Part shown: positions 4,297 through 27,995 of the stretch, piece after piece | Position numbering within the stretch: position 1 is the stretch's first letter | How the letters are laid out: every line of letters starts with the position of its first letter | IMG/VR virus record: IMGVR_UViG_3300023108_000105 | Location: 1-30,795 of that record | DNA length: 30,795 nucleotides | Reading direction: 5' to 3' (one strand) | Origin: a virus | Notes under the pieces: model-generated | Seen by the model: the letters and a program-made list of their open reading frames with translations, nothing else | Told to the model about the DNA's origin: nothing | Databases searched by the model: none | Translations under genes and position numbers: made by a program

Positions 4297-4482
4297 GTGA
4301 GAGAACTTTTAGATATAAGAACACCTCAACAACCAGCACACGACCTACGACAAAGAGTTCATGAATTAAATCAAAACAAAAGAGGTGATTTTTATTCACT
4401 CTTGCCAGTCTATTGTGAAAGAAATCCTGTAGTATATTATTACTTAGTCAAGGAATATGAAACTAAATCTTATCGTTACTGA
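4297..4482 (+). CDS. Small hypothetical protein with GTG start
   Basis: 61 residues. I choose the GTG at 4297 because AGGAGA lies 4 bases before it; a longer in-frame reading from 4258 would start inside the leader hairpin. The protein is charged at the start (RELLDIRTPQQPAHDLRQRV) and aromatic at the end ('VYYYLVKEYETKSYRY'). It overlaps the Mom-like gene by 26 bases, suggesting translational coupling. Function unknown. Confidence 0.6.
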   Translation: MRELLDIRTPQQPAHDLRQRVHELNQNKRGDFYSLLPVYCERNPVVYYYLVKEYETKSYRY

Positions 4483-5254
4483 AATTGACCGAAAACTTGC
4501 CACACACTTTGTTGAAAAAACACATTACTCGCCCATTATGCCAAGACTGACAAGACATTTTCTTGGGTTCTATCAAGAGAATGAATTGAAAGGTGTATTG
4601 ACACTTGGTTGGGGAACAAGACCACGACACACAATTCAGAAATTATTTCCTTCTTTGAACACCGATGATTATTTCGAAATTGGAAAGATGTGCATGGGTG
4701 ATGAAATGCCAAGAAATTCTGAATCACAAATGATTGCTCAGACTGTCAAGTGGTTGAAACAATATCATCCATCAAGAATCTTTCTCTACACAATGGCTGA
4801 TGGTATCATGGGCAAATGTGGCTATGTGTATCAAGCATCAAACTTTTATTATGGTGGTCAATATCTGACAATGGTTTATTTGATGCCGAATGGTGAGAAA
4901 CTTCACCCTCGTTCCACAAAGAAACTTCTAATCGAAAATCAGGAATTCTCAGGTCAGAAGAAACTTCACTGGATGACCAGAGACTTCATGAATCACAAGG
5001 GTATTCGCCTGATTGAAGGTCAGATGTTTCGCTACATCTATCCTCTGAACAAGTCTGCGAAGAGAATGATGGAGAAAGAATCCACCACAGAGTGGACAAA
5101 GAACTATCCAAAAGACCATGACTTGATTTGGTATGACAAAACTACATTACCTAAACAGGTGATTCCAAAACCAGATTTCACATATGAGAATATGGAATTC
5201 AATCCTCAAGCACAGAAATCTTCTGAAATCAATTTGTTAGAGTTTTTCAGTTGA
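4457..5254 (+). CDS. Mom-like GNAT-fold DNA modification protein
   Basis: 265 residues. The central part shows the layout of the phage Mom family, acyltransferase-fold enzymes that modify adenine in DNA: an early 'HYSPIMPR' segment (23-30), two strands 'HFLGFYQENELKGVLTLGWG' (34-53), 'FEIGKMCMGDEMPRNSESQM' (73-92) with the conserved N-S-E-S, a helix, 'FLYTMADGIMGKCGYVYQAS' (109-128) and 'NFYYGG' (129-134). The pattern N-x-E-S...Y-x-x-x...G-x-x-Y-Q-A-S-N-F-x-Y-x-G is characteristic. A modification role fits three methyltransferases elsewhere in the window. The acyl donor and target base are not deducible. It ends 18 bases into the convergent gene on the other strand. Confidence 0.75.
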   Translation: MKLNLIVTEIDRKLATHFVEKTHYSPIMPRLTRHFLGFYQENELKGVLTLGWGTRPRHTIQKLFPSLNTDDYFEIGKMCMGDEMPRNSESQMIAQTVKWLKQYHPSRIFLYTMADGIMGKCGYVYQASNFYYGGQYLTMVYLMPNGEKLHPRSTKKLLIENQEFSGQKKLHWMTRDFMNHKGIRLIEGQMFRYIYPLNKSAKRMMEKESTTEWTKNYPKDHDLIWYDKTTLPKQVIPKPDFTYENMEFNPQAQKSSEINLLEFFS

Positions 5255-9022: not shown

Positions 9023-9374
9023 ACTTTCGGAGAAAGACTACGAAACACTTCGGCATTCTGCTGAAGTGTATATGGTCAATACAATTTATGATGATTTTCA
9101 TTTTCCTTTTCTTGTTTCATTTGGCAAAAAACATATCTTTCAGGAATTCTCTCATGGAGATATTCATTTAGGTGTTCTTTATCTGGAATGGCACAAGTTA
9201 GAAAATGAAAAAAGAGGATATTATAAACGTACTTGGTTCAATTCATTTGAAGAAGCTGCTGAAAAAGCAATTGAAATTCAATCGAATAAAATTGTGAATG
9301 AAGAAAAGTTATATCGTTATCACCAATCATATTTTCAAGACATTTATAATCCACCTGAAAGGTTATATTCATGA
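9015..9374 (+). CDS. Hypothetical protein
   Basis: 119 residues from the ATG at 9015, which overlaps the end of the oxygenase gene by 8 bases; an in-frame ATG at 8952 would force a longer overlap. It is mixed alpha/beta with a His-rich centre ('YDDFHFPFLVSFGKKHIFQE', 'FSHGDIHLGVLYLEWHK') and a helical C-terminus. Family not recognised. The overlap on both sides (4 bases with the next gene) suggests coupled translation with the oxygenase and the decarboxylase homologue. Confidence 0.65.
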   Translation: MSKLSEKDYETLRHSAEVYMVNTIYDDFHFPFLVSFGKKHIFQEFSHGDIHLGVLYLEWHKLENEKRGYYKRTWFNSFEEAAEKAIEIQSNKIVNEEKLYRYHQSYFQDIYNPPERLYS

Positions 9375-10018
9375 AGCCTCTTGACCGAATTATATTATCA
9401 CTTGATACAACTGATACGGATTATGCTAATCGAATGATTGAAAAATATTCAGAAATAATCTATGGATTTAAGTTGAATCATTTATTGTTCAATCAACATT
9501 CACTTCTTCGTTATTCTTATACAGATGTTCCTACATTAGTTGATTATAAATTGTTTGATATACCAAACACCATGACACATATTCTGATGGATCTGATTGA
9601 CCGTGGTGTTGATATGGTGACAGTTCATATGTCAAACAGTCGACATGCTCTCGATTGTCTCGCAGATTATGCAGACCAAATCAAAATCTGTGGTGTAACA
9701 TTGTTGACTAGTTGGACTGATGCTGATTCTCAAGCACGATATGGTAAAACTCCAGCTGAACTATATGCTGAAAGTATTGCTGAGATGGAAAAATATGGTT
9801 TCTGGGGAATGATTTGTGCGCCAACTGACCTTGAATATGCAAAGATGGCAAATACAACTCTCAAAAAAATATGTCCTGGTATTCGCCCCAATACCTCAAT
9901 CGCAACCTTGATTAGTACAGATGACCAAGTTCGTATTATGACACCTGACCAGGCAATTGAAGCCGGAGCAGACTACTTGGTGATGGGCCGATCCTTCTAT
10001 GAATATGTCAATGATTGA
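9371..10018 (+). CDS. pyrF: Orotidine 5'-phosphate decarboxylase homologue
   Basis: 215 residues with the OMP decarboxylase signatures in order: Asp12 of strand 1 ('LSLDTTD'), Lys34 ('GFKLN'), the catalytic array D-x-K-x-x-D-I at 58-64 in 'VDYKLFDIPNT', 'VTVHMS' (83-88), 'GVTLLTS' (108-114), 'GIRP' (170-173) and the phosphate-binding Arg207 in 'DYLVMGRSFY'. The enzyme converts OMP to UMP, the last step of de novo pyrimidine synthesis. The length is close to that of short archaeal forms. All key acidic and Lys residues are present, so activity is likely. A related sugar-phosphate decarboxylase is less likely because D-I-P-N-T and G-I-R-P are kept. Confidence 0.88.
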   Translation: MKPLDRIILSLDTTDTDYANRMIEKYSEIIYGFKLNHLLFNQHSLLRYSYTDVPTLVDYKLFDIPNTMTHILMDLIDRGVDMVTVHMSNSRHALDCLADYADQIKICGVTLLTSWTDADSQARYGKTPAELYAESIAEMEKYGFWGMICAPTDLEYAKMANTTLKKICPGIRPNTSIATLISTDDQVRIMTPDQAIEAGADYLVMGRSFYEYVND

Positions 10019-11039
10019 AAATTATCTTAATCGCAAGAACTCCTTACGAGAATTACCTGATTCTGAATTTGATGAAAAAGTTGAAAGCTTGGCTGAAGAA
10101 CTGTCTCAAATGAATTATCGTTATTCATATCGTAACATTGAACTTCATAATGATTGGAGAGATTTATGTAGGTATGATACAACTTTTCTTCAGAATTCAG
10201 CATCAACAACAAGAACTGGATTGAAACTTTGTGAACATTATTTTCCAAATTTCTTTGAGATTCAAAATTCAAAAGGTCAAAGTTTCGCAAATTGCTGGAC
10301 CAAAGAAAACTTGGTCAAAGTCCTGAAATGGAATCGCAAGTCACACCAGACACCATATCTCTCGGAGCTTCGTAGAGGTGTTTATTTCTGCTGTGGTTTG
10401 ACGAAAAACACCATGTTCAGACCTCACATCGCAAAAACGGTTTGTGCAAATTTTTCGAAAAAAACGGTTTTAGATCCTTGTTGCGGTTGGGGTGGCCGAA
10501 TGATTGGTGCCCTTGCTGCAGGCAAACACTATATCGGATTTGAACCAAATGGTGATACTTATCGAGGTTTGTTACAACTCGCTGATTTTTTGAATGCTCG
10601 TAATCGTGTTGAAATTTACAATGACGGTGCTGAGAACATGACTAAATATAATTTTGAGAGTGTTGATTTGATTCTCACATCTCCTCCTTATTTCAACTTA
10701 GAGATTTATTCAGAATCAAAACTTCAATCTGAGAATATGTTTTCAAATTATGATGAATGGCGAGATGAATGGCTAAAGCCTGTGATTCGTCAGTCTCTCG
10801 ATAAATTGAATAATGATGGTTATTCGGCATGGAATGTTCACAATGTAGGTAAAATGAAAATGATTTTCGATGTTGAGAAAATTCACAAAGAATATGGATA
10901 TGATGTGACCTCTGAAATCTCCTTATCCTCTTCGAAACGCCAAGCAAACAACCATCGTCAGAAAAACAACGACCTGACAAGAATATTCTATTCAACAGAG
11001 CGAAAGCAAAAAAATGCTTTTCTCGAAATTTTTTCTTGA
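10011..11039 (+). CDS. DNA methyltransferase with TSPPY motif (copy A)
   Basis: 342 residues from the ATG at 10011 (ATGATTGA overlaps the previous stop; in-frame ATGs at 9999 and 10005 are alternatives). The SAM site is 'VLDPCCGWGGRM' (about 153-164) and the catalytic motif IV is 'LTSPPYFNLEIY' (about 222-233). S-P-P-Y is more often linked to N4-cytosine than N6-adenine enzymes, but the motif alone does not decide. It is a clear paralogue of the gene at 14966: shared 'RYSY...N-x-E-L', 'GLKLC-x-H', 'FPNF' and 'SKG-x-SF'. The conserved N-terminal 130 residues, outside the catalytic domain, are probably for target recognition. Confidence 0.9.
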   Translation: MIENYLNRKNSLRELPDSEFDEKVESLAEELSQMNYRYSYRNIELHNDWRDLCRYDTTFLQNSASTTRTGLKLCEHYFPNFFEIQNSKGQSFANCWTKENLVKVLKWNRKSHQTPYLSELRRGVYFCCGLTKNTMFRPHIAKTVCANFSKKTVLDPCCGWGGRMIGALAAGKHYIGFEPNGDTYRGLLQLADFLNARNRVEIYNDGAENMTKYNFESVDLILTSPPYFNLEIYSESKLQSENMFSNYDEWRDEWLKPVIRQSLDKLNNDGYSAWNVHNVGKMKMIFDVEKIHKEYGYDVTSEISLSSSKRQANNHRQKNNDLTRIFYSTERKQKNAFLEIFS

Positions 11040-14965: not shown

Positions 14966-15895
14966 ATGTCAGCAAAATTACCTGTAGATATTACAACTGA
15001 AGAGATTATAGCATTAGATTTTCGTTATTCTTATACAAATTCAGAATTATATAAAGATTGGCAGAAATTACAAAACACAATCTTATATAAAACAGGTTCT
15101 CAATTCAAACCAGGATTGAAACTTTGTCAGCACTTTTTTCCTAACTTCTGGAAAATCGAAAATTCGAAAGGATTATCTTTTGAAAAATGTTGGCAAGATC
15201 GAACATTGATGAAGAAAATTCATGAATGGGGTTTGAATTCAATGAGTTCTCTATGGCTCTCATGGATTCGCAGAGCCGTATACCTAGCGGGTGGTTTACC
15301 AAACTCATCTTATTACCGTCCGCATTTTTCTAAACAAATCATTGAGCAATTTGCAAAAAAGAAAAATGGAATCTTATTTGATCCTTGTGCTGGTTGGGGC
15401 GGGCGTATGCTCGGAACTGTGGCTGCTGGCTGGTCTTATGTTGCATGCGAACCGAATCGAGAGACGTATGAGAATTTATCAAAACTGATTGATTTTCTTG
15501 ACATCTCGAATTCTGTTACACTACATAACATACCAGCAGAGAAGTTTACCTATGACCAAAAGGTGGACATTGTTCTTACATCTCCACCTTACTTCAACCT
15601 TGAAATATATACGAGAGACTTAGACCAATCGTATCATCGTTATCTTGAATATGAAATTTGGAATGAAAAATGGTTTCGGCCATTGATTGAAAATTCAATG
15701 TCAATGCTGAATGAGAATGGTCTTTCTTGCTGGAATGTAATGAATTTTGGCAAACAAGACCTTGTTGAAACAGTCATTGATGTTCATGTAAAAAATAATT
15801 ATCGCTATCTTGACCGTGTTGGTTTTACAAGTCCTCTTGCGAATATAAGAAACCTTAAAAATAAAGATGTTACTTATATTTACCAAAGGATTTAA
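14966..15895 (+). CDS. DNA methyltransferase with TSPPY motif (copy B)
   Basis: 309 residues. The SAM motif is 'FDPCAGWGGRM' (138-148) and motif IV is 'LTSPPYFNLEIY' (204-215). It is a paralogue of the gene at 10011 along its whole length, including the N-terminal 'DFRYSYTNSELYKDWQKL' and 'GLKLCQHFFPNFWKIENSKG' segments. The C-terminal halves diverge ('GFTSPLANIRNLKNKDVTYI' here), which may mean different target sites. It lies between two [DE]RR-repeat genes, starting 14 bases after one and sharing one base with the other. Its late-operon position is odd for a DNA methyltransferase and may mean modification shortly before packaging. Confidence 0.88.
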   Translation: MSAKLPVDITTEEIIALDFRYSYTNSELYKDWQKLQNTILYKTGSQFKPGLKLCQHFFPNFWKIENSKGLSFEKCWQDRTLMKKIHEWGLNSMSSLWLSWIRRAVYLAGGLPNSSYYRPHFSKQIIEQFAKKKNGILFDPCAGWGGRMLGTVAAGWSYVACEPNRETYENLSKLIDFLDISNSVTLHNIPAEKFTYDQKVDIVLTSPPYFNLEIYTRDLDQSYHRYLEYEIWNEKWFRPLIENSMSMLNENGLSCWNVMNFGKQDLVETVIDVHVKNNYRYLDRVGFTSPLANIRNLKNKDVTYIYQRI

Positions 15896-18918: not shown

Positions 18919-19848
18919 ATGAACTTCAAAGATGCACTCAAATCCCGAACCTCAAGACTTCAATCAATGCAAGCCCGACTCGAGAAAGAGTCAAAGGCAA
19001 CTTCATACGAAGACACACGATTCTGGCGTCTTGAAGGCAAAGATGGAGTTGGTTCCGCAATCATTCGTTTTCTTCCTCCACCACCAAATGAAGAGAAAGA
19101 ATATGTTCGTTATTATCGCCATGAGTTCAAAGGCAATCATGGCTGGCTGATTGATAATTGTCCGACAAGTATCGGTGAAAAGTGTCCGATTTGTGAGGCA
19201 AACAATCTGCTTTGGTCTGAAGGTGGTTCTGAGAATGAAGAACTTGCTCGTTCACGCAAGCGTCGAATGAAGTATGTCTCAAACATTCTTGTTGTTCAGG
19301 ACAACGCCAATCCTGATAATGTTGGTAAAGTCTTTTTGTTCCAATATGGCGCAAAAATCTTTGAATTCATTCAAGAAAAAATTGATCCTCCGACACCAGA
19401 GTTCGATGACATGAAGCCAGCGGAACCTGTGTATGTGTTTGATTTTCTTGAAGGCTGTAACTTCCGTCTGCGAATGCGACGTGAAAAAGGTTACATCACC
19501 TATGATAAATCATCCTTTGATGAGCCTTCTCAACTCGCTGAAGATGATGATGCGATGGAAGCAATCTGGCGTGCACAGCACTCATTGACTGAGTTCGAAA
19601 GCGCAGATTATTACAAGTCCTACGATGACTTAAAAAAGCGTTTTGTCACTGTAACAACTGGTGCTTCAACTGAAACCACCAAACCTTCCGTAATCGAAAC
19701 TCCTTCTGAAGATGAAGAAGTAGTCGCTGAAACAAAAAAGCGAAAGCAACCTGAGTTTGTCACTAAGAGTGACCGAGTATCAAAACCCACAGATGCTAAT
19801 GATGGTGATGACGAATTGGCATTTTTCGAAAAACTAGCAGAAGAGTAA
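18919..19848 (+). CDS. 32: Single-stranded DNA-binding protein gp32
   Basis: 309 residues. It has the basic N-terminal cooperativity region ('SRLQSMQARLEKE', 12-24), a core with 'RFLPPPPNEE', and a zinc site His68, Cys81, Cys89, Cys92 ('CPTSIGEKCPIC', 81-92) with spacing similar to T4 gp32. The C-terminus is a low-complexity hinge ending in the acidic tail 'DGDDELAFFEKLAEE', the docking point for gp59, polymerase and recombination proteins. A dedicated promoter and C-rich codons suggest high expression. Identification is secure. Confidence 0.96.
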   Translation: MNFKDALKSRTSRLQSMQARLEKESKATSYEDTRFWRLEGKDGVGSAIIRFLPPPPNEEKEYVRYYRHEFKGNHGWLIDNCPTSIGEKCPICEANNLLWSEGGSENEELARSRKRRMKYVSNILVVQDNANPDNVGKVFLFQYGAKIFEFIQEKIDPPTPEFDDMKPAEPVYVFDFLEGCNFRLRMRREKGYITYDKSSFDEPSQLAEDDDAMEAIWRAQHSLTEFESADYYKSYDDLKKRFVTVTTGASTETTKPSVIETPSEDEEVVAETKKRKQPEFVTKSDRVSKPTDANDGDDELAFFEKLAEE

Positions 19849-23177: not shown

Positions 23178-24071
23178 ATGAGATTAGAAGATGTATATAT
23201 GATCCCACCTATTTCTGTTCTTGATGTCAAGCAGAAGAGATGGAAAGACCGGCGTCGGTTTTGGTTGAATTTAGGAATTGAAAGTGAATTAGGACGAGAA
23301 GCAAACTTATTAGGCTTGTCTGAACTGTTAGCAAAAAAACAAAATCGCACCAGTATCTTTGATCCTGTGCTTTGTGAAATCATGTATAAATGGTTCACAA
23401 AAGAGAATGATTTGATTCTGGATCCTTTTGCTGGTGGCTCTGTTCGTGGTATCGTAGCAAGTCATTGTAAACGAAATTATACAGGTATTGATTTATCTTC
23501 GACACAGCTGGAACATAATCGCCAGCAGGCTCAGGATCTCTGCCAGTCGCATTTTCCTGAGTGGCTTCATGATGATGCTATGAATGTGAAAAAGCTGAAA
23601 AAAACATATGATTTTATGTTCACATGCCCTCCTTATTATGACCTTGAGGTCTATTCAAATGATAAGCGAGACCTGTCCGCAATGAAATCATATGCTGAGT
23701 TTCGTCACTTTTATGAAACAATCATTTATGAATCATGTAAGAAATTGAAAGAAAATTCATTTGCTGTTTTCGTTGTGGGAGAAGTTCGTGAGAATGGTAA
23801 CTATGTTGGTCTTGCTTCAGATACTGTTCGTGCTTTCAAGAACGCAGGGTTGAATTTTTATAATGAAATGATTTTACTACAAGAACCCGCAACAGCAGCA
23901 CTACGATCTAACCGGTTTATGAATGCTTCTCGTAAGATTGCTAAATGTCATCAGAACGTTTTGATGTTTATCAAGGGTGATGCGAAAAAAATTGCTGAAC
24001 GATTAGGACCGGTAACAATCGAAAAACAGGAAGAAAGCATTCTTTTTGAACTTTTTACCAAGGAAGCATGA
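23178..24071 (+). CDS. DNA methyltransferase with CPPY motif (copy C)
   Basis: 297 residues. The SAM motif is 'ILDPFAGGSVRGIVA' (80-94) and motif IV is 'FTCPPYYDLEVYS' (148-160), where the first residue of x-P-P-Y is Cys. The general layout is that of beta/gamma-type amino-methyltransferases. It is only distantly related to the copies at 10011 and 14966 (shared 'PPY-x-x-L-E-x-Y'). It starts one base after the capsid-protein stop and its stop overlaps the start of the ADP-ribosyltransferase-like gene. The C-terminal 'NRFMNASRKIAKCHQNVLMF' resembles ends of other phage DNA modification methylases. Base and site specificity unknown. Confidence 0.88.
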   Translation: MRLEDVYMIPPISVLDVKQKRWKDRRRFWLNLGIESELGREANLLGLSELLAKKQNRTSIFDPVLCEIMYKWFTKENDLILDPFAGGSVRGIVASHCKRNYTGIDLSSTQLEHNRQQAQDLCQSHFPEWLHDDAMNVKKLKKTYDFMFTCPPYYDLEVYSNDKRDLSAMKSYAEFRHFYETIIYESCKKLKENSFAVFVVGEVRENGNYVGLASDTVRAFKNAGLNFYNEMILLQEPATAALRSNRFMNASRKIAKCHQNVLMFIKGDAKKIAERLGPVTIEKQEESILFELFTKEA

Positions 24072-24652
24072 AAACTTTTTCACAATTTCTCACCGAAGAT
24101 AAGAGTCTCGTTTTCTATCATGGTGGAAATCTCAAACTAAGTTCAGACAATCGACTAACACCAGAGGATATAGCAAGAGTTCCTCGCAGCAAAAGAATTG
24201 AATATGGACCTGGTCTCTATCTGACCACATCTGCTCAAGTTGTGGAGAAATATGCAAAGGGTTCACGCAAACTTTATAAAGTTCATGTCAATCCTGGAAA
24301 AGAAATCAATGAAGTCAAAGTCAACATCTCAAGTATTGATGAACTAATCAGTAGTCTTGGACGACCAAAGGTTCAAAAAATCAAAGATCGAATTGAAAAT
24401 TCTCGTTTTGATGAGAATGGAAAAGTTGGTGCTTACATTATTCTGAATTTTTGTATCAATGACAATTTGTTACGAACCGAAAGAGGACGTAAAGGAATGC
24501 GAGACTTTTTAGTTAAACATGGAGTTGATTATGAAATTCACAATTCACCATTTGGTTGGAAAGAAACAATGATGGTGTTGTTCAATACAAATAAGATTTC
24601 AATGATTCAACAAATTGACCGCAAACAAGCTATAGAGGATTTACACAAATGA
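24068..24652 (+). CDS. Capsid-targeted ADP-ribosyltransferase-like protein
   Basis: 194 residues. 'MKTFSQFLTE|D' is a T4-type capsid-targeting sequence with a possible cleavage point after Glu10. Then 'VFYHGGN' (15-21), 'IEYGPGLYLTTSAQVVEKYA' (44-63) and 'KLYKVHVNPG' (68-77) follow the order of PARP/ART-like folds: Tyr-His-Gly for NAD binding, G-x-G-L-Y-x-T-T with the conserved Tyr, and a strand. The third catalytic residue (often Glu) is not clear; Glu near 'FGWKETMM' is a candidate. T4 packages the ADP-ribosyltransferase Alt and injects it to modify host RNA polymerase; this could be a functional analogue. Confidence 0.7.
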   Translation: MKTFSQFLTEDKSLVFYHGGNLKLSSDNRLTPEDIARVPRSKRIEYGPGLYLTTSAQVVEKYAKGSRKLYKVHVNPGKEINEVKVNISSIDELISSLGRPKVQKIKDRIENSRFDENGKVGAYIILNFCINDNLLRTERGRKGMRDFLVKHGVDYEIHNSPFGWKETMMVLFNTNKISMIQQIDRKQAIEDLHK

Positions 24653-25164: not shown

Positions 25165-25524
25165 TCAGTTAATTTGCTTTGTTGTTCCTAATTTTTGTTT
25201 AGGTGTATGCAATTGAATCAATTCAGCTATTCTTTTAGGTGGGTTTTTCACTCGTTTTTGAAACGACATCAAACTTTGACGAATCTGTCCAATTTCATTC
25301 ATTGTCAAAGCCACATCATAAGTCGCATTTTCTTTTTCTGACTTACTCATTTTTGTAAAAATAGGTGTATCAATTCTTGAAAATTTTCTTCCCAAAGGAG
25401 AATTTGAATCCAAGCTATTTTGAATCAACCATACATCTTCAGCAGAATACTTCGCACCTTCATAAAGATGAACGTTTGCTATACGATTGATCTCTTCATA
25501 TAATTGATAACTTATCTTCTCCAT
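25165..25524 (-). CDS. Quartet protein 4, probable virion-associated
   Basis: 119 residues, helical, basic at the end. The N-terminal 'YQLYEEINRIANVHLYEG' (6-23) follows the 'x-I-x-x-I/V-V/A-N' pattern shared by the three genes upstream on this strand. The middle has 'RIDTPIFTKMSKSEKENATYDVAL'-like charged helices (from residue 50). It overlaps the upstream gene by 13 bases. Function unknown; a late, packaged role is inferred from operon and late box at 26811. Confidence 0.65.
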   Translation of the reverse strand: MEKISYQLYEEINRIANVHLYEGAKYSAEDVWLIQNSLDSNSPLGRKFSRIDTPIFTKMSKSEKENATYDVALTMNEIGQIRQSLMSFQKRVKNPPKRIAELIQLHTPKQKLGTTKQIN

Positions 25525-25847
25525 TTGTCTCTTGAAACGCCAGCATTTTTTCGTTGAGCTTCTGAGCCAATTTTTTGAATCTTCTTATATTCAGGATCAT
25601 TTTTAATCAAATTATCCAAAGTAGTCTTTTCCATCATTTTTGTTTTTCCAAGTAATCCTTTGATTTGATTAAATTCAGGTGCTGTGATTCCATGAACTTC
25701 TTGTAATTCTTTAATTTGCTTATTCACCTGAACCAATAATTGACCTAAAGCAAACAAAGCATTCTGTTTCTTTTGAAAAGGACTTCGTGAATCTTCAAAT
25801 AAATTAACAATTTGATTGATATCTTCAATCACTTGTTTTTTGTTCAT
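25512..25847 (-). CDS. Quartet protein 3, helical
   Basis: 111 residues, nearly all helical, net basic. The N-terminus 'KKQVIEDINQIVNLFEDS' (3-20) carries the shared I-x-x-I-V-N motif. The body ('QNALFALGQLLVQVNKQIKE') suggests a coiled coil, and the end is Lys/Arg-rich ('QRKNAGVSRDKWRR'). It overlaps its neighbours by 4 and 13 bases, so all four quartet genes are probably translated from one message. No homologue recognised. Confidence 0.65.
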   Translation of the reverse strand: MNKKQVIEDINQIVNLFEDSRSPFQKKQNALFALGQLLVQVNKQIKELQEVHGITAPEFNQIKGLLGKTKMMEKTTLDNLIKNDPEYKKIQKIGSEAQRKNAGVSRDKWRR

Positions 25848-26155
25848 TTGCTCTCTTTTTCATCTGAAACTTCAGATGCTTTTGGAAATCCAGGACAGGC
25901 ATCCATCAAGTCATTCAAAGCTTTTTTCATTGGGTCCTTGAGTGCTTGAGCTTCTTGTCGTGCAGTTTTCTTTACTTCATTACTTCCAGTTTCTAAAGCA
26001 CGTGTAATTGCATGAACTACATCTTCTGCTGAAGGTGCCTTTGCAGCGCCAACTTTCATTGGAGCATCCGCTTCATTGATTGATCTTTTTCGAGCATATG
26101 CGGGATTAACTACAGAGGCGATATCCTGATAAACTGACTTGCTATGAATTGGCAT
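25844..26155 (-). CDS. Quartet protein 2, possible capsid-targeted protein
   Basis: 103 residues from the ATG at 26155, which has GGAAT upstream; a longer in-frame reading to 26206 would overlap the preceding gene and lacks a better site. The start 'SVYQDIASVVNPAYARKRSI' then 'NEADAPM' (7-31) carries the shared motif and ends in N-E|A, a possible prohead-protease site. The rest is Ala/Lys/Glu-rich helix like T4 internal proteins, ending in an acidic-basic tail. Two Cys-poor helices and no enzyme motif. A virion-internal role is inferred. Confidence 0.6.
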   Translation of the reverse strand: MPIHSKSVYQDIASVVNPAYARKRSINEADAPMKVGAAKAPSAEDVVHAITRALETGSNEVKKTARQEAQALKDPMKKALNDLMDACPGFPKASEVSDEKESK

Positions 26156-26171
26156 TTTTTTATTCCTTAGT

Positions 26172-26774
26172 TTAGATTTCAAAAGTTTGTCCAAAGACTT
26201 TAGCACTTATATTTACATAGTGACCACCATCTCTGACTAAATACTCTCCTTTTCGAAGAGTTCTTTTTTGTGTACCTGAAGCAAATTCTACATCAGGACC
26301 TGTGTATCGAGCAACTTCTCGCATTGTATCTTTTTTATGTTTCAAAGGACCACCCACATTTCCAGAATATTCTTTATTAAGTGCTGCCTTTTGTACTACT
26401 CTTGTTTGACCATCACTATCTTTAAATAAAAAGTCTCCATTTTTTGCTTTTATATTAACACTTTGGCTATTTAGTTTTTCAAGTTGACTTTTATCGCCTT
26501 TGATCATCATGTATGATTGAGTTTTCATTTTAGAAAAATTAGGTTCAACAGAAAATGTATATGGTTTTGTTTCACGAACTTTAAATTTCTTAAAAGATAG
26601 GTTTTTACAAATATTATTAAATCTTGTTGTATTTGTTTTTGGGTCTTCCTGAGTTGATCCTTCTGGTTTATTTGCTTGAGCTTTTGGACCAGGTTGTTCA
26701 ACTTCAGTCAAGTTTTTTGGAACAAAACTTGAATTCACAATTGAACTAATTTTGCTCAGTAAATCGGGCGTCAT
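26172..26774 (-). CDS. Quartet protein 1, possible capsid-targeted protein
   Basis: 200 residues. The start 'LLSKISSIVNSSFVPKNLTE' (5-24) has the shared motif and ends L-T-E|V, a possible cleavage site. A Pro/Gln/Lys/Thr-rich linker follows (25-50), then a beta-rich basic domain ('VRETKPYTFSVEP', 'GDFLFKDSDGQTRVVQKAAL', 'LRKGEYLVRDGGHYVNISAK'). An exact late box lies 36 bases upstream. It is the first gene of the quartet. No known domain recognised; the beta-rich part may be a small SH3- or barrel-like fold. Confidence 0.65.
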   Translation of the reverse strand: MTPDLLSKISSIVNSSFVPKNLTEVEQPGPKAQANKPEGSTQEDPKTNTTRFNNICKNLSFKKFKVRETKPYTFSVEPNFSKMKTQSYMMIKGDKSQLEKLNSQSVNIKAKNGDFLFKDSDGQTRVVQKAALNKEYSGNVGGPLKHKKDTMREVARYTGPDVEFASGTQKRTLRKGEYLVRDGGHYVNISAKVFGQTFEI

Positions 26775-26891: not shown

Positions 26892-27026
26892 ATGAAAAAA
26901 GCAAGACTCGGAGCCGAAAGGGCTCTCCTTCTCCGCTCTCGCTATTCTGAGAAATTCGAAAAGATTCGAAAATATTCAAAGAAAGACCGTCAAGCAAACA
27001 AGCGGATTGACTATCGTTCTTTGTGA
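26892..27026 (+). CDS. Small basic early protein
   Basis: 44 residues: MKKARLGAERALLLRSRYSE followed by a Lys/Arg/Tyr-rich helix. It has a strong promoter and ribosome site, and higher GC than its surroundings, both signs of a real early gene. The high charge suggests nucleic-acid or RNA-polymerase binding, as with small T4 host-takeover proteins, but no family is recognised. Its last 16 bases overlap the convergent response-regulator gene. Confidence 0.65.
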   Translation: MKKARLGAERALLLRSRYSEKFEKIRKYSKKDRQANKRIDYRSL

Positions 27027-27553
27027 CATTTGTAACCATGTTCACCCAAGAATTGAATCGTTTGAGAAAGTTCTTGAGTGTTCACTGGTTTGCGTAACAA
27101 GAGAAAACGACCAGCGCCCAGTGTTTTAGCAATTGATTCAAACGGTGTGTCAGAATATGCTGTGATGAAGCAAATCTCAATGTTTGGATCAAGTTCGTTT
27201 AGTTTACAAGCAGTTTCGAATCCATTGATGCCCGGTGGCATTCGCATATCTAAGACAGCAACAAGATACGGATCTTGTTCTTCGAGAGCCTTTGAAACCA
27301 TTGAAATGGCTTCTTCACCTTGTTGAGCAGTATCTAAACGGAGTTTTACATTTTCTTGAATCACCTGAGAAGCACCGATGCTATCAAGAGACTGGTTGAA
27401 AGATTTGGCAACATGTGTTTCGTCATCAAAGAGTGCTGAAGCCATATTACGAAGTTCTTTGATTCCTATATCCTCTGTCCTTGAAAGGATATCCATATAG
27501 GCATCTAAGATTTTTTGCTCATCGTCTACAAGTAGAATGCGATAATTTGACAT
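27011..27553 (-). CDS. Stand-alone response-regulator receiver protein
   Basis: 180 residues. All receiver-domain landmarks are present: acidic pair Asp10-Asp11 ('LLVDDE'), phospho-acceptor Asp102 ('VAVLDMRMPPGINGFET'), Thr131 ('FITAYSD') and Lys155 ('LLRKPV'). A helical insertion of about 50 residues (roughly 25-70) sits between strand 1 and strand 2, making it longer than CheY. 'VLDMRMPPG' with 'TAYSD' is typical of regulators working with hybrid sensor kinases. There is no output domain and no kinase in the window, so it may intercept a host phosphorelay. An exact late box (27581-27588) lies 27 bases upstream. Confidence 0.9.
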   Translation of the reverse strand: MSNYRILLVDDEQKILDAYMDILSRTEDIGIKELRNMASALFDDETHVAKSFNQSLDSIGASQVIQENVKLRLDTAQQGEEAISMVSKALEEQDPYLVAVLDMRMPPGINGFETACKLNELDPNIEICFITAYSDTPFESIAKTLGAGRFLLLRKPVNTQELSQTIQFLGEHGYKCHKER

Positions 27554-27580: not shown

Positions 27581-27588
27581 TATTTATA
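27581..27588 (-). promoter_or_regulatory. T4-like late promoter TATAAATA for the response regulator
   Basis: Exact consensus on the minus strand, 27 bases before the ATG at 27553, back to back with the early promoter at 27598. Confidence 0.68.
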
Positions 27589-27597
27589 AAAAAAGAC

Positions 27598-27626
27598 TTG
27601 ACATTTTTGAATCAATCTGCTATGAT
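27598..27626 (+). promoter_or_regulatory. Extended -10 sigma70 promoter with TGATCTGATCA
   Basis: TTGACA (27598-27603), 17-base spacer ending CTGC, TATGAT (27621-27626), overlapping the inverted repeat TGATC-T-GATCA that also occurs at two other promoters of the window. Confidence 0.85.
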
Positions 27627-27659
27627 CTGATCATAGTCAACAATCTCTAGGAGAAGCTT

Positions 27660-27995
27660 ATGTCAGTAAGAGATGTTCTCGGAACACTCACAGAAAAGCA
27701 ATTAATTTGTGCTTTCACAGAAATCATGTTAGACCGCTTTAACAAAATTCGTAATCCTTACGGACAGACTTCAATCAAGATAGGTGAAACTGATGTGAAT
27801 GACCAATTGGAATCTCTTCAAGAATTTATTTCTCATCTAAGAAAAAGAAATCCTCTCAAGAATTATTCAATCCGTCGAAGAGGACGAGGCTCACGTGTAG
27901 CTCATGAAACATATGTTGGAGAATATCAATGTTATCTACCTTTAGATAAGGCTGAACGAGTTGCCGTTTATATTGTTGAAAGGTCTAAAAGATAA
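27660..27995 (+). CDS. Basic hypothetical early protein
   Basis: 111 residues with a strong promoter and ribosome site (AGGAGA). The N-terminal half is helical ('DVLGTLTEKQLICAFTEIML'), the C-terminal half is rich in Arg ('YSIRRRGRGSRVAHETYVGE') and ends in a strand-helix. It could bind nucleic acid by charge. It is alone in its transcription unit: a late box for the next gene begins within its stop region. Family not recognised. Confidence 0.7.
   Translation: MSVRDVLGTLTEKQLICAFTEIMLDRFNKIRNPYGQTSIKIGETDVNDQLESLQEFISHLRKRNPLKNYSIRRRGRGSRVAHETYVGEYQCYLPLDKAERVAVYIVERSKR

Follow-up and report, generated by a model that had tools for sequence, protein, structure and literature searches.

A late-type, phage-borne receiver without output domain from a bacterial subfamily linked to HN-box sensor kinases

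The window analyzed here is a viral record of 30,795 bases from a T4-like environmental phage. At 18919-19848 it encodes a T4-type gp32 single-strand-binding protein (PHROG 224, E = 5.7e-87), whose best isolate matches are cyanophage T4-likes at about 42%. The gene under study, P0001, occupies positions 27011-27553 on the minus strand, starts with ATG, and codes for a stand-alone receiver of 180 aa that matched Pfam PF00072 with E = 2.2e-15 and 57.2 bits (curated cut-off 30.2). An earlier note on this DNA had described a response regulator with a full phosphorylation site and no output domain, and the sequence agrees with it on both points. The site consists of the acidic pair Asp10-Asp11 for Mg2+ (27521-27526), the phospho-acceptor Asp102 (27248-27250), Thr131 of the switch (27161-27163), and the invariant Lys155 (27089-27091), all on the minus strand; these residues were unchanged in every phage homologue, including those with 70% identity. 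PF00072 was the only Pfam domain above cut-off, and the short segment after the core had no family match. P0001 is a genuine, conserved gene, and its sequence supports a phosphorylatable, phage-borne receiver without output domain. It is a phage-specific branch of a known protein kind and not a categorically new one.

The AlphaFold model of P0001 (pLDDT 80, pTM 0.73) has the (beta-alpha)5 fold of a classic receiver, with beta1 at residues 2-9, alpha1 at 13-24, two insertion helices at 31-42 and 45-53, beta2 at 69-76, and a long alpha5 at 159-178; its best PDB structure matches were ordinary receivers. The insertion of about 50 residues that had been claimed is present, at approximately residues 25-68 (27350-27481, minus strand), but the model puts it between helix alpha-1 and beta-2 and not directly after strand 1. 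Much of it was modelled at low confidence. Helix 31-42 ends in SALF, the bacterial counterpart of which is conserved as LExxLFG, and the linker at 43-68 is variable, with none of its 26 positions invariant among the phage proteins. Relative to CheY-type receivers, the loop between beta-3 and alpha-3 carries one extra residue, within an MPPG motif (27230-27241, minus strand). PDB sequence matches, with Spo0F among the nearest solved sequences, were limited to the part beyond the insertion, and thus no solved subfamily member was seen.

The protein ends in the tail FLGEHGYKCHK (residues 168-178; 27020-27052, minus strand), which by alignment is specific to the phages. All 11 tail positions are invariant among phages and one matches the bacterial majority; in the beta5-alpha5 region 26 of 32 positions are phage-invariant and only seven equal the bacterial majority, these figures coming from four sequences of a single clade. 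A pattern scan of genome contigs found EHGYKCH in no bacterial relative.

By its insertion and its extra loop residue, P0001 belongs to a receiver subfamily defined here as LFG-insert/MPPG, the marks of which are a helical insertion after alpha-1 and the motif DMRMPPGxxG. An initial scan of genome contigs with phage-only patterns gave no bacterial relative. The first ones came from a plasmid search (REC-GGDEF-EAL and others, aligning through the insertion), and genome relatives were recovered once the profile included a plasmid relative. A GTDB genome scan by pattern and tblastn then yielded 25 relatives of full length (L010-L034), all sharing the insertion and the MPPG motif. The insertion was considered as a phage innovation and rejected, because bacterial relatives align through it; it is not a phage-specific feature. 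With a profile that includes phage rows, full-length members scored 78-254 bits and other receivers at most 46. The subfamily is represented in Pseudomonadota, Planctomycetota, Verrucomicrobiota, and Myxococcota. With even sampling and a threshold of E <= 1e-12, matches were found in 28 of 398 genomes from the phylum of a Pseudomonas relative and in 31 of 288 from Verrucomicrobiota, the phylum of Pelagicoccus, so the subfamily is widespread yet a minority trait.

The architectures were REC-GGDEF-EAL, REC-PAS-GGDEF-EAL, REC-HisKA-HATPase_c, and REC alone, fusion to GGDEF-EAL, kinase, or PAS modules being usual. Fused receivers such as L010 from Pseudomonas, L141, and L013 (REC-GGDEF-EAL, REC-HisKA-HATPase, and REC-PAS forms) share with P0001 the insertion, the extra loop residue, and a full active site at roughly 30-47% identity; unlike P0001, they usually carry effector modules, have an HN-box kinase beside them, and lack the phage tail. 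Stand-alone bacterial members of the same subfamily (L009 from Indioceanicola, L149 in G451, L022 from Minicystis, L036 from Pelagicoccus, and L139) are single receivers like P0001; they too lack the tail, and they were not placed with the phages in trees (L009 in one tree only).

Five further phage records encode the stand-alone form. Two proteins (L002, L003) are identical to P0001; L004 aligns with it at 81% identity, and L005 and L006, whose linker is 14 residues shorter, do so at 70%. Judged by a dN of 0.15 and a dS of 1.2 between P0001 and L004, the phage receiver is under purifying selection. All six phage records are fragments of 15-49 kb; most of the T4-like records with the nearest gp32 run to about 170-200 kb. 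A tblastn search of INPHARED gave no P0001 homologue at E <= 1e-5, and its matches at E <= 1 were weak and covered ordinary receivers.

The phylogeny against host receivers proposed earlier recovered the phage proteins as one clade on a long stem in three trees (support 97/85, 98/97, and 100/98); a donor lineage was not found in trees of up to 86 sequences, which showed no close bacterial relative. The best bacterial match, L141, had 42% identity across the full domain (E = 1.9e-27). Grouping of the phages with an alphaproteobacterial/planctomycete PPGIDG set was neither rejected nor supported (AU p = 0.448). Two candidates were set aside. L072 behaved as a long-branch artefact when used as outgroup and was dropped, and L089, a Pseudomonas-like REC-PAS-GGDEF-EAL gene on a "viral" contig, grouped inside Pseudomonas and was not counted as a phage homologue, its contig being host DNA or a prophage flank.

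An exact T4-late-type promoter box, TATAAATA, lies at 27581-27588 on the minus strand, 35 nt upstream of the P0001 ATG, as the note had reported, and it is kept in the phage relatives. It is exact in four of the six phage records, including L002-L004 (38 nt upstream of the start in L004), and has one mismatch in L005 and L006. The window holds seven exact boxes against 1.73 expected, a number reached in 0 of 100 shuffles, and three of the seven precede a start codon by 35-44 nt (P = 0.0002 by randomisation). Motif, position, and conservation support a late promoter before P0001, from which we infer that the protein is made late in infection. T4 gp55 was not detected in the phage records, all of them fragments.

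On the other side of this box, a sigma-70-like promoter (TTGACA-17-TATGAT, 27598-27636, plus strand) serves a divergent gene at 27660-27995, a homologue of which adjoins the receiver in L004, L005, and L006. The perfect palindrome CTATGATC-T-GATCATAG (27620-27636) overlaps the -10 of that promoter, is partly kept in L004-L006, and could be an operator. A small plus-strand ORF (MKKARLGAERALLLRSRYSEKFEK..., 26892-27026) runs antisense to the receiver gene and overlaps its 3' end; a homologue of this ORF adjoins the receiver in L005 (2768-2923).

Most proteins adjoining the bacterial members were sensor kinases, equipped with CHASE4, HAMP, PAS, hemerythrin, or receiver modules. Six of this type were scanned and had HATPase_c and no HisKA match, and an HNxxN H-box and GFGLH are common to the cores of these adjoining kinases. 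In a profile survey of 22 genomes, such HN-box kinases, scoring 180 bits or more against 131 for the next match, were present in 12 of 12 receiver-positive and 0 of 10 receiver-negative genomes; six of the 12 had contributed a sequence to the profile and six had not, and since the positive genomes were picked for having the receiver, the survey tests association and not frequency. Each of the 12 had one strong kinase ending at most about 70 nt upstream of a receiver on the same strand. Altogether, 14 of the 21 strong kinases in those genomes were directly adjacent to a receiver and 18 were within 10 kb. The kinase lay downstream instead at loci L165, L167, and L168, and at many Pseudomonas loci the flank was too short to judge adjacency. 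Among the stand-alone members, L009 and L149 differ from P0001 in that a CHASE4 kinase directly precedes them.

The natural phosphodonors of the subfamily are thus probably HN-box sensor kinases, as far as gene neighborhoods tell. That P0001 might serve as a decoy to some hybrid kinase of the host, as suggested earlier, is plausible, and the neighborhoods point to a more specific partner class, with HNxxN/GFGLH cores and CHASE4, HAMP, PAS, or hemerythrin sensors. In the phages this adjacency was not seen: the window and the five related records, all six fragments, held no second receiver, no HATPase_c domain, and no HN-box kinase, which confirms that the window has no partner kinase. Some HN-box kinase loci (L150, L151) adjoin HNOB (haem-NO-binding)-PilZ proteins. 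The HNxxN/GFGLH kinase family tied to MPPG receivers (L149, L148, L009, L013, L150, L151, and others) may merit its own description.

Tentatively, we favor a reading of P0001 as a late, phospho-accepting single-domain regulator that would engage HN-box kinases of the host, whether by competition, as a sink, or by inhibition. Derived from the bacterial subfamily as a working single-domain response regulator and made late, P0001 would dock on the histidine domain of one or more host HN-box kinases and there take up or block the phosphoryl group. Receivers that belong to the host itself (c-di-GMP enzymes and other effectors) would then stay unphosphorylated, and one host sensory pathway would be frozen during virion production. 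The intact catalytic site, the likely HN-box partners, and the absence of an output domain favor such direct engagement. Against it, the helix that faces the kinase, alpha-1 (ILDAYMDIL), agrees only in part with that of some bacterial members, and all phage records are fragments, which leaves room for a phage kinase elsewhere. The residues at D+2 and T+2 are Arg104 and Tyr133. Arg and Tyr at these positions recall slow dephosphorylators, and Spo0F, with Lys and Tyr, holds its phosphoryl group long. On this comparison a fast-hydrolysing phosphate sink would be less likely than a role in titration, inhibition, or as an adaptor.

The tail, invariant in phages and unlike that of bacteria, favors an additional or alternative target and hints at one more binding partner, for which a mere decoy would have no use. 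P0001 might then be a phospho-switched adaptor, phosphorylated by a host kinase and, in that form, binding and altering a host or phage target through its alpha4-beta5-alpha5 face and tail, like CheY or EpsW; the phage would read a host signal, not block it. Phosphorylated EpsW activates an enzyme through direct binding (PMC12802240), and the phage-invariant tail and beta5-alpha5 region would fit a similar use. Invariance among four sequences of one clade is nevertheless limited evidence, and late expression leaves little time to use a signal once read. We regard such an adaptor, acting via the tail, as nearly as likely as the engagement of HN-box kinases.

It is improbable that P0001 belongs to a phage-encoded relay with its kinase or phosphotransfer partner elsewhere in the phage genome. 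The fragments fall well short of the genome length of most T4-likes closest in gp32, which leaves space for such a partner; against this, none of the six records has a HATPase_c domain or HN-box kinase, and the natural kinase lies directly beside the bacterial receivers but not beside those of the phages. We give still less credence to a co-opted scaffold, that is, a virion or assembly protein for which phosphorylation is no longer relevant. The late-type box would suit it, as would the adjoining minus-strand genes with a late-type box of their own, but the catalytic residues are all invariant at 70% identity while the linker varies freely, and the lack of a PHROG structural match also argues against it. 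A nucleotide-processing receiver of the cRec type, as proposed for jumbo phages, is very improbable: cRec domains are divergent phage-borne receivers (PMC7824862), characteristically linked to NAD/ADPr-processing genes and never to histidine-kinase systems, whereas P0001 sits in a canonical, kinase-tied subfamily with kinase-linked bacterial relatives. Its direct neighbors include no gene for a NAD/ADPr enzyme; a weak ART-like candidate (24068-24652) lies 2.4 kb away.

Engagement of host HN-box kinases has models among receivers without output. DivK, CheY, Spo0F, DifD, EpsW, and Osp resemble P0001 in this respect and are examples of sinks, adaptors, and kinase inhibitors. They are different receivers, and we know of no P0001-type insertion in them. 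Osp, a single-domain regulator, inhibits the kinase CckA directly (PMC9430884), and DifD with DifG is a phosphate sink (PMC12802240). Documented cases of phage control over host two-component signalling are rare. PIT4 of Pseudomonas phage LSL4 binds host histidine-kinase domains; before it, no phage protein directly interacting with a host two-component component had been reported (PMC10714779). The proposed P0001 would share with PIT4 its action on histidine kinases of the host, but PIT4 is the product of an early gene and was described as a phage protein not known before, rather than as a response regulator (PMC10714779). Foldseek also found phage receivers in BFVD, such as A0A6C0R1B8 of Alteromonas phage PT11-V22 and A0A6J5RMP2 ("CheY-like receiver"), with the same fold and stand-alone by length; compared with P0001, these two are shorter (143-149 aa) and have 16-19% identity.

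It is possible, and we say so with reserve, that a T4-like phage group made a dedicated inhibitor from the receiver half of an HN-box kinase/MPPG pair and gave it a new tail for the late shut-off or capture of one class of host sensory signalling, often c-di-GMP-linked. The P0001 sequence names a likely partner kinase family and candidate residues (Asp102 and tail 168-178), and it exposes a sequence-defined family of receiver/kinase pairs for which the PDB sequence matches include no solved receiver with the insertion.

Elsewhere in the window, four small proteins are encoded in a row at 25165-26774 (minus strand), some with similar N-termini (LLSKISSIVN, IASVVN, VIEDINQIVN); the first had no family match, and an exact late-type box of its own lies 44 nt upstream of it. 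The ART-like gene on the plus strand had an ADP-ribosyltransferase ART-PolyVal match below cut-off (E = 0.002). An orotidine 5'-phosphate decarboxylase is encoded at 9371-10018 (plus strand; PF00215, E = 6.8e-30). Three plus-strand genes, at 9999-11039, 14966-15895, and 23178-24071, resemble N6/N4 DNA methylases (PF01555); the match of the second falls below cut-off, and this gene looks like a paralogue of the first. The plus-strand gene at 4457-5254 had a strong match to the Mom family of phage DNA modification (PF25680, E = 4.2e-57).
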